From: Planctomycetaceae bacterium
GTDB taxonomy: Bacteria > Planctomycetota > Planctomycetia > Planctomycetales > Planctomycetaceae
Direction: 5' to 3'
NCBI GenBank assembly: GCA_021732975.1
Contig: JAKFWC010000021.1
Span: forward strand, 1-64,000
Length of the DNA: 64,000 bases
A model generated the notes under the pieces. The model saw only the letters and a list, made by a program, of their open reading frames with translations. It did not search any database and was not told the origin of the DNA. Below are positions 19,531-22,381 of the stretch, piece by piece; position 1 is the first letter of the stretch; each line of letters opens with the position of its first letter. Made by a program: the position numbers and the translations under genes.

Positions 19531-19606
19531 CTGGGGCAGAAACGAAAAACACCCGCGGACATTCATCCGCGGGTGTCTGCGTTTTCACTGTTAATCAGTG
19601 ATCAAG

Positions 19607-20986
19607 TTACTGGATGCAACCACCGGGAGCCGAGCCGCAAGCGGTGGCGGCGGGAGCTGCACAATCCGGAGCGACAGGGCAGCAGGTCGCGATCGGAACC
19701 TGACGGCAGACCGTCCGAGGCACGCAGCGAACTTTCGTTTCGCAGATCTGACGCGGCGTGCAGCGGGTCTTGGTCACCATCCGGGTTTCACAGACTTGAC
19801 GGCAGGTCGTGTAAGGAACCTTGCGGGTCCGTGTTTCCTGGGTCATCGTGCAGGTCGTGTAAGGCACCTTCTTCGTGACGGTTTCACAGGTCCAAGTGCA
19901 GGTCGTGTAAGGAACACGCTTCGTGTGGCATTCTTCGGTCCACGTGCAGGTTGTGTACGGGACTTTCTTGGTGATCGTTTCGCAGGTCCACGTGCAGGTC
20001 GTGTACGGAACACGCTTCGTGCAGGTTTGCTGTTCGTGACGAACGCAGGTGTAAGGCACGTTCTTCGTCACCGTGTAAGGCACCTGACGGCAGACCGTGT
20101 AGGGCACCTGGCACTGACGGACTTCTTGTTCCATCCGCGTGCAGCAGACCGTGCGGCATTCCATCCGAGGCACCCATTTGCGGCAGCAGACCGTCCGCAT
20201 CGTTTGCTCGCACACCGTCCGGCAGCAGCCGGGCTTGTAGACGCAGCAGCAGGTGCAGGGATCCCATTCCCACGTCCCTTGATCCTGCACGCAACGGCTG
20301 ACGATCGGGCCGGGAACCTGTTTGGATTCTTCCACCCAGTCGCCGGTGCAGACCTGGACTTGCTTGGTTTCGGTGACCGGCTTGCAGACCGTGTAGCAGA
20401 CGTTCTTGTAGCAGGTTTCCGATTCCGTGCGGTACTGCGTGCAGCAGACCTGGCGATAGTGCGTTTCGTAGATCGGCTTGCAGACCGTGTAGCAGACATC
20501 GCGGTAGCAGGTCTGATAGCACGGTTTACGAACCGTGCAGCAGACATCGCGGTAGCAGGTCTGATAGCACGGCTTGCGGACGCGGCAGCACACGTCGCGA
20601 TAGCAGGTCTGGAAGCACGGTTTACGAACCGTGCAGCAGACATCGCGGTAGCAGGTCTGATAGCACGGCTTGCAGACCGTGTAGCATTCATCCCGCCAGC
20701 AGGTGTCGTAAACGTTGCGGGTGCAGGTGACCGGAACTTGTTCGATGCATTGATCGTAAACGGTCCGGGTGCAGGTGTAGGTTTGCGGTTCCCACACGGT
20801 TTCCTGGACGGTCTGATAGCAGGTGGTGTTGCACGCTTTGGCGGAGCAATAATCTCCGCACGGCGCGCACGCCTTTTTGGAGAGCGAGAAGAATCTCCCC
20901 GCTCCGCAGTAGCCGGCGTTGGCGGTTTCGCCACTGACGAGTGCCACCACACCCATCAGGACGACCATCCAGGTTGCTTGTTTCAT
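19607..20986 (-). CDS. Cysteine-rich YTV-repeat secreted protein (planctomycete cell-wall type)
   Basis: 459 aa; signal peptide MKQATWMVVLMGVVALVSGETANAG; repeated CYQTCYRDVCCTVRKP and KxVPYTTCTWTCETxT units; roughly 70 Cys by hand count. Confidence 0.88.
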   Translation of the reverse strand: MKQATWMVVLMGVVALVSGETANAGYCGAGRFFSLSKKACAPCGDYCSAKACNTTCYQTVQETVWEPQTYTCTRTVYDQCIEQVPVTCTRNVYDTCWRDECYTVCKPCYQTCYRDVCCTVRKPCFQTCYRDVCCRVRKPCYQTCYRDVCCTVRKPCYQTCYRDVCYTVCKPIYETHYRQVCCTQYRTESETCYKNVCYTVCKPVTETKQVQVCTGDWVEESKQVPGPIVSRCVQDQGTWEWDPCTCCCVYKPGCCRTVCEQTMRTVCCRKWVPRMECRTVCCTRMEQEVRQCQVPYTVCRQVPYTVTKNVPYTCVRHEQQTCTKRVPYTTCTWTCETITKKVPYTTCTWTEECHTKRVPYTTCTWTCETVTKKVPYTTCTMTQETRTRKVPYTTCRQVCETRMVTKTRCTPRQICETKVRCVPRTVCRQVPIATCCPVAPDCAAPAATACGSAPGGCIQ

Positions 20987-21547
20987 GGAACTGTCCTTAA
21001 TTCATTCCTTGCGTCGGTAGCGCGTGACCGAGACGGCTTGAGTCGAGTTGAAAAACAAGGGCTCGCTTCTAGAACATCGACGGAAAAGCCGACGCTCTTG
21101 AGCCAAAGTCCGCAAAATACCCGACCGCTAAATCTTCCCAGACTCGCCAACTAACGCGGACTCGTTAAAAATGAGTCCTCAACCAGGGTCGTACGCCGGT
21201 CCAACCCGCTGGAAATTGTCTTCCGTACAGGTCGCTGACAGGGGGTGCTGACGCCGCACCGATTCTCACTGTGACAATCGGATCGTCAGTAGCCGTAACT
21301 CTTCCCCGTCGCGTCAAACCCTTAGTGCGTCTGTAGACTTCCCAAATTACCCGGTCCGCAAACTGGCGAAGTGTTTAGCCGCGCCCTGGAGTCCGCGAAG
21401 GGGAGCGCTCGTGCGGCGCGTCGGAACCTTTTGTGCCTAGTCCCTTCTCCTCGCGGGCGGGGACCGGAGCGCGCGCTCGCGTGGTCTCCCACCGCGCTGG
21501 TATCGTTTTCCACGGTCATGCTGGAATCACCATTGCAGGAATGCGTC

Positions 21548-22381
21548 ATGCGATTTGCGATTTGTCAGGAGTTGTTCGAGGGGTGGGACTGGGAACGGCA
21601 ATGTAAATTCATGGCTGAAACCGGATACACCGGAATTGAACTCGCGCCATTCACCCTCGCGCCGCGCATCACCGATGTCTCTGCCGCGCGGCGACAGGAA
21701 TTAAAGAAGGTCGCTGCCGACTATGGGCTGACCATCTGTGGTCTGCACTGGTTGCTCGCGAAAACGGAAGGACTGCATCTCACCACAGCGGACGCAAGCC
21801 GACGCGCTGCAACCTCGTCCTATCTACGCGATCTTGCCAACGCCTGTGGTGATCTCGGTGGGACCGTGCTGGTCTTCGGCTCACCCGCGCAGCGCAACAT
21901 CGAATCCGGCATGGAGCGTGCCCAAGCTTATGCGAATGCCGCGGAGGTGTTTCGTAACGCGATGCCCGTGTTTGGCGATCGTAACGTCACGCTGTGCATG
22001 GAACCGCTCACTCCGAAGGAAACCAACTTCTGCAACACTTGCGCGGATGCCTGCGAGTTGATCGCGCTTGTTGATCATCCCTGCTTTCAACTGCATCAGG
22101 ATGTGAAGGCGATGTTGTCGGAAGCGACGCCGATCCCCGCGCTCATCGAACAGTTCGCCTCGGTGACGAAACATTTTCACGTCAACGACAACAATCTTCT
22201 TGGCCCTGGTATGGGGCCGACGGAGTACGAACCGATCTTCGCCGCGCTACAGAAGACGAACTACGCTGGTTGGGTGTCGGTGGAGGTGTTCGATTACCAA
22301 CCCGGCGCGGAATTCATCGCGCGTGAAAGCCTTCGATACATGCGCGAAGTCCTCGCGCGATTGGCTTCTCAACCCGCTTGA
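21548..22381 (+). CDS. Sugar phosphate isomerase/epimerase (AP endonuclease 2-like TIM barrel)
   Basis: Start placed at MRFAICQELFEGWDWERQCKFMAETGYTGIELAPF; FHVNDNNLLGPGMG; WVSVEVFDYQPG. Confidence 0.9.
   Translation: MRFAICQELFEGWDWERQCKFMAETGYTGIELAPFTLAPRITDVSAARRQELKKVAADYGLTICGLHWLLAKTEGLHLTTADASRRAATSSYLRDLANACGDLGGTVLVFGSPAQRNIESGMERAQAYANAAEVFRNAMPVFGDRNVTLCMEPLTPKETNFCNTCADACELIALVDHPCFQLHQDVKAMLSEATPIPALIEQFASVTKHFHVNDNNLLGPGMGPTEYEPIFAALQKTNYAGWVSVEVFDYQPGAEFIARESLRYMREVLARLASQPA

Follow-up and report, generated by a model that had tools for sequence, protein, structure and literature searches.

A cysteine-rich YTV protein of a Planctomycetaceae bacterium whose two repeat arrays probably form the arms of one giant antiparallel beta-hairpin

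The window analyzed here is a stretch of 64,000 nucleotides from a Planctomycetaceae bacterium (assembly GCA_021732975.1, contig JAKFWC010000021.1), and it contains a gene of the YTV family whose layout is given in Table 1. The ORF starts with ATG and encodes 459 amino acids, among them 69 Cys (15.0%), 75 Thr (16.3%) and 55 Val; the chain opens with MKQATWMVVLMGVVALVSGETANA followed by GYC. A preliminary description of this DNA had counted by hand about 70 Cys in 459 residues after a signal peptide; the length and the signal peptide, the latter as read by eye, stand and the Cys count becomes 69. An open frame of 518 codons overlaps the gene in antisense on the plus strand (window 19598-21154). 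It showed no match in Pfam and was taken as a shadow ORF of the repeat coding. Divergent from the YTV gene lies a Xylose-isomerase-like TIM-barrel gene (window 21371-22381), which adjoins YTV in about 30 of 80 related loci; since this is a minority and no functional link was seen, the gene neighborhood was discarded as a clue to function.

Table 1. Features of the YTV gene and its flanks, in window coordinates
Feature	Position	Strand	Basis or remark
YTV protein gene	19607..20986	-	ORF and PF07639 match, E=1.2e-24; stop codon 19607-19609
AAGGA, Shine-Dalgarno-like, 7 nt upstream of ATG	20994..20998	-	sequence reading
Putative signal peptide, residues 1-24	20915..20986	-	by-eye reading; AlphaFold2 helix 3-17
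Cys-rich head, residues 25-55	20822..20914	-	low model confidence (pLDDT <50)
N-arm, residues 56-234	20285..20821	-	ten 16-residue units, then turn approach; one predicted beta-strand
Predicted hairpin turn (Trp/Cys linker), residues 235-254	20225..20284	-	strand break in both AlphaFold2 models; symmetry center residue 244
C-arm, residues 255-432	19691..20224	-	turn approach, then ten 16-residue units; one predicted beta-strand
Ala/Pro/Cys-rich tail, residues 433-459	19610..19690	-	low confidence in AlphaFold2 model
Terminator-like stem-loop of 14 pairs with T-rich tail, 29 bases past stop	19547..19578	-	pattern match only

The protein matches the Pfam YTV model with 86.5 bits against a curated cut-off of 21, in seven stretches covering both halves, which confirms the identity first proposed for it. 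The gene is an ordinary member of a family that was already known, as was its repeat. Its product has the features of a secreted Cys-rich repeat protein: 69 Cys, the by-eye signal peptide and 16-residue units. The source genome (65% complete; its relatives place it in class Planctomycetia) carries three YTV genes and both paralogues also pass the PF07639 cut-off. A close relative of the window protein occurs in 117 of the 120 genomes of its taxonomic family and in all 94 good ones, the closest being 97% identical. The YTV model was matched in 149/149 genomes of class Planctomycetia, in 12 of 118 across the phylum and in none of 14 control genomes; two of the 12 are weak matches outside the class, and YTV was otherwise confined to Planctomycetia / Planctomycetales. 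A sequence search of the PDB with the YTV protein returned no relatives.

YTV proteins had been proposed to belong to planctomycete walls, and this agrees with the literature covered here. They are described as the main components of the boiling-SDS-resistant walls of G. obscuriglobus (PMC5287468), and in T. immobilis wall preparations they are top-scoring (PMC8567305); for the SDS-resistant planctomycete wall see also PMC3422733. The essential genes of P. limnophila include a YTV protein, whose Cys were suggested to serve wall rigidity (PMC10632474). The window protein is like the YTV proteins from the walls of R. baltica, G. obscuriglobus and T. immobilis in its Pfam match, Cys richness and apparent signal peptide, and nothing sets it apart from them; what is added here is the predicted hairpin architecture.

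The preliminary description had pictured two module classes with a common period of 16 residues (48 bp), quoting four units of each, separated by a Trp/Cys-rich linker. All the quoted repeats are present in the ORF, as is the linker GTWEWDPCTCCCVYKPGCC (residues 237-255), but each half runs ten units rather than four, with anchors at residues 58-202 in the N half and 284-428 in the C half. The period itself is far above chance: self-identity at lag 16 is 0.393 for the mature protein, 0.561 for the N part and 0.344 for the C part, against 0.151, 0.229 and 0.195 for the best lag in 1000 shuffles of each, and in the DNA the units of both halves are spaced by exactly 48 bp. In the 16-residue phase the N units read [YC]-T-V-[CR]-[KR]-P-[VC]-Y-[QKE]-T-C-Y-[RK]-[DT]-V-C and the C units Y-T-[TV]-C-[TSR]-[MWY]-[VT]-[CQP]-[EQ]-T-x-T-[KR]-[KRQ]-[VI]-P. 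Out of 16 possible phases they align best at phase 0, where both follow, roughly, Y-T-[VT]-C-[KR/T]-x-[VT]-x-[EQ]-T-x-x-[KR]-x-V. Two distinct module classes are ruled out, because the halves hold the same repeat in the same phase and a single Pfam model spans both. In more distant members of the class the two halves are even more alike (YTVCKPVWETKTKDIC and YKVCKMVPETRTKTCT in L012). Units within a protein are slightly more similar than the same unit between proteins (0.68 versus 0.62 for N units, 0.63 versus 0.59 for C units), which points to concerted evolution, and two N units are identical over all 48 bases.

Because AlphaFold2 can invent structure for repeats, pairing between the halves was examined by a separate coevolution test, in which mutual information with APC correction was computed between residues 57-214 on one side and residues 271-431 on the other over 91 orthologues (Neff 50). 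The couplings between the halves peak at i+j=488 (z 16.1), 486 (z 10.6) and 490 (z 9.2), whereas outside this peak the best antidiagonal reaches 2.7 and the best parallel diagonal 3.1, a pattern that we read as an antiparallel ladder between the arms. Permuting the C halves between proteins erases the signal at 488 (maximum 2.0-2.5); it is kept in two disjoint halves of the data and in all four quarters of the putative hairpin, and at i+j=487 the couplings still reach z 11.8 within the turn, at residues 235-242. The orthologue group of the second YTV gene, a paralogue with 33% identity to the window protein, comprises 47 sequences; it gave peaks at i+j=454 (14.5), 452 (10.0) and 456 (6.3) and nothing else above 2.6, and its register lies +2 from its G...W turn landmarks, as does that of the window protein.

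The AlphaFold2 model built from 60 orthologues places residues 56-234 in one unbroken strand (179 residues) and residues 255-432 in another (178 residues), joined by the Trp/Cys linker. Its pLDDT is mostly 70-85 and its pTM 0.21; a fragment of the tip (residues 150-336) reached a pLDDT of 90.4 and a pTM of 0.33, with strands of 82 and 81 residues. The outer strand ends of the tip model are residues 153 and 335, whose sum is 488, and the full-length model also sums to 488; the agreement is to be read knowing that AlphaFold2 draws on the same coevolution signal as the mutual-information test, so that the two are only partly independent. The low pTM values would be expected for a long thin rod but also for an uncertain arrangement, and so count somewhat against the model. 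Foldseek gave as top matches the phi29 collar/tail complex and the lysenin and aerolysin pores (E 4e-7 to 1e-3), which have a long two-stranded hairpin in common with the model. With TM-scores up to about 0.2 and no sequence relation, these pores and phage tails were rejected as relatives and the resemblance is of shape only. The PDB searches returned nothing comparable to one hairpin with about 178 residue pairs.

Coevolution is blind to whether pairing is intra- or intermolecular, and the N-arm of one chain might pair with the C-arm of another, in a domain-swapped dimer or a polymer; polymerization would suit a wall. This we regard as unlikely, since the register is centered on the turn and the couplings run into it, where the chain closes on itself, and since the AlphaFold2 monomer folds as a hairpin.

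The arms were also compared by an alignment-free test on paralogues, several of which contain 14-residue units; unit anchors were listed for each arm, counting outward from the turn, by motif patterns alone. The 14-residue units stand at mirror-image positions in the two halves. In L155 the arms match to the residue over 18 anchors, including six steps of 14 residues; in L219 and L222 nine anchors each agree to the residue, a double 14-14 step included, and these three loci come from single-contig genomes. Seven anchors are identical to the residue between the arms of L217, and in L170 nine agree up to residue 153; beyond that point one arm has a 14-residue unit more than the other. In most cases the spacing of an arm agreed better with that of the other arm of the same protein than with the arms of unrelated proteins; as several lists are near-palindromic, unit spacing alone cannot separate antiparallel from parallel order. 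Two loci, L158 and L163, and a related 585-aa paralogue (L010:4715-6472, same genome) have a period of 14 or 14-14-16 residues instead of 16, in both arms together.

Within the group of the window protein, the arms are of identical length in 57 of the 60 parsed orthologues. Of the remaining three, two have one extra unit (+16) in both arms and are not mutual nearest neighbors by identity, and one has an arm a unit short and a shorter turn. Against this, unequal arms were clearly seen in the paralogues L199, L204, L206 and L216, all from draft genomes, where near-identical repeats may have collapsed at assembly. An automatic unit count over 58 representatives found equal arms in 16% and arms within one unit in 47% (Pearson 0.67), but the parser cannot be relied on where the outer units have diverged, and the count is too noisy at the outer ends to prove equal arms, so the explicit motif anchors were used. 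Recovered in two gene groups and echoed by mirrored irregularities, the hairpin taken by itself is well supported, and we hold it to be highly probable.

In the window protein itself, no Cys sits opposite another Cys at i+j=488. Across the orthologues there were 0.19 facing Cys-Cys pairs per protein versus 1.79 with the C halves permuted, 9.93 facing opposite charges versus 8.65 and 0.45 facing like charges versus 1.17, and for each of the three counts none of 2000 permutations was as extreme. The paralogue group showed the same directions for Cys and charges (facing Cys 0.98 versus 1.56 permuted). As Cys avoids facing Cys at this register, the arm Cys (28 + 20 = 48) are unlikely to bond directly across their own hairpin, and intramolecular cross-strand disulfides were discarded as the main mode. 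The 48 arm Cys are probably used between hairpins, bonding neighboring molecules. Among the orthologues the Cys number varies from 53 to 94. Of the 69 Cys positions no more than 18 are conserved at 90% or above, as would be expected if many alternative crosslinks were workable.

A search for candidate disulfide oxidases in 25 genomes, those of the source organism and 24 relatives, found DsbB in 4 and VKOR in 5, and neither in the source genome or two congeners; they are missing from most of this set, though the relatives carry Cys-rich YTV proteins, which weighs against disulfide formation, and both were set aside as the oxidase. Their absence from the source genome and the two congeners, together with the large number of Cys, would suit a hairpin whose Cys bind metal or act as a redox store rather than as structural crosslinks. 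We consider this improbable, because so low a conservation of Cys positions and so variable a Cys number are loose for metal sites and because the relatives are components of walls that resist boiling SDS (PMC5287468, PMC3422733).

The reading that we prefer, with a probability of roughly 0.8, is that the YTV gene product is a secreted structural protein whose two repeat arrays would be the arms of one giant antiparallel beta-hairpin, with Cys left for bonds between hairpins in the wall. Over about 178 residues, residue i of the N-arm would lie opposite C-arm residue 488-i; the turn would be at the Trp/Cys linker and, taking 0.33 nm per residue, the hairpin would be about 60 nm long. Facing positions would be charge-matched, and the common 16-residue period would give every unit the same cross-strand environment; the register would in this way explain why both halves share one period, and being defined it makes the structure directly testable. 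With Cys kept off Cys-facing sites, the arm Cys would be free to reach neighboring hairpins, and such bonds would produce a disulfide-linked, SDS-insoluble wall fabric, consistent with walls that resist boiling SDS. The data show the family, the period, the hairpin register and the avoidance of facing Cys; we infer the wall location in the source organism, the intermolecular disulfides and the load-bearing role, and the crosslinked fabric, taken by itself, is plausible. There is about an even chance that the protein wall of the whole class Planctomycetia is a fabric of self-zipped giant hairpins tens of nm long, in which facing Cys are selected away so that crosslinks are inter-chain and compensatory changes in the two arms hold the register while length varies among paralogues.

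The solenoid-like fold of the preliminary description, with each 16-residue unit a coil stacked on the next, draws on the strong period and on in-arm couplings at offset 16, but is very improbable: the couplings at offsets 16, 32 and 48 are about equal (z 6.1, 4.2 and 5.3 in one arm; 6.1, 6.6 and 5.7 in the other), which fits concerted evolution of units and not stacking between neighbors only, the single antidiagonal between the halves is not predicted by coils and argues strongly against them, and neither coil geometry nor dominant (i, i+period) contacts were found, AlphaFold2 giving two extended strands. Beta-solenoids such as curlin share the short regular beta repeat, whereas the YTV arms would pair end to end with no coiling.

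It has long been asked how a protein wall lets planctomycetes keep their shape, and YTV proteins were already known as Cys-rich components of that wall. A contact-based trRosetta model exists for a member of the same Pfam family (D5SU36; PMC8078820), listed in a table row with a predicted TM-score of 0.59 and no template; the main text describes no architecture for it. The YTV literature covered here by text search gives no description of a YTV fold or hairpin, and within that literature a giant-hairpin building plan for a protein-based bacterial wall is unreported.

Some minor observations concern other YTV loci. The second YTV gene of the source genome (L009:8850-14655; G000:C3:68849-74654) lies about 2-4 kb from a D-Ala-D-Ala ligase gene and an FtsQ-like gene, the latter a marginal Pfam match. 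One of the two weak matches outside the class scores 26.7 bits (L320; G246:C53:24906-25022), and a simple filter there yielded no ORF corresponding to it. The other, on the minus strand of L321 (G280:C12:10000-15500) and from another class of the phylum, is a 719-aa protein with a prepilin/PilX-like start and a Cys-poor block of YTV-like repeats arranged in two arms; if real, it would be a pilus-type protein with a built-in YTV-like hairpin.
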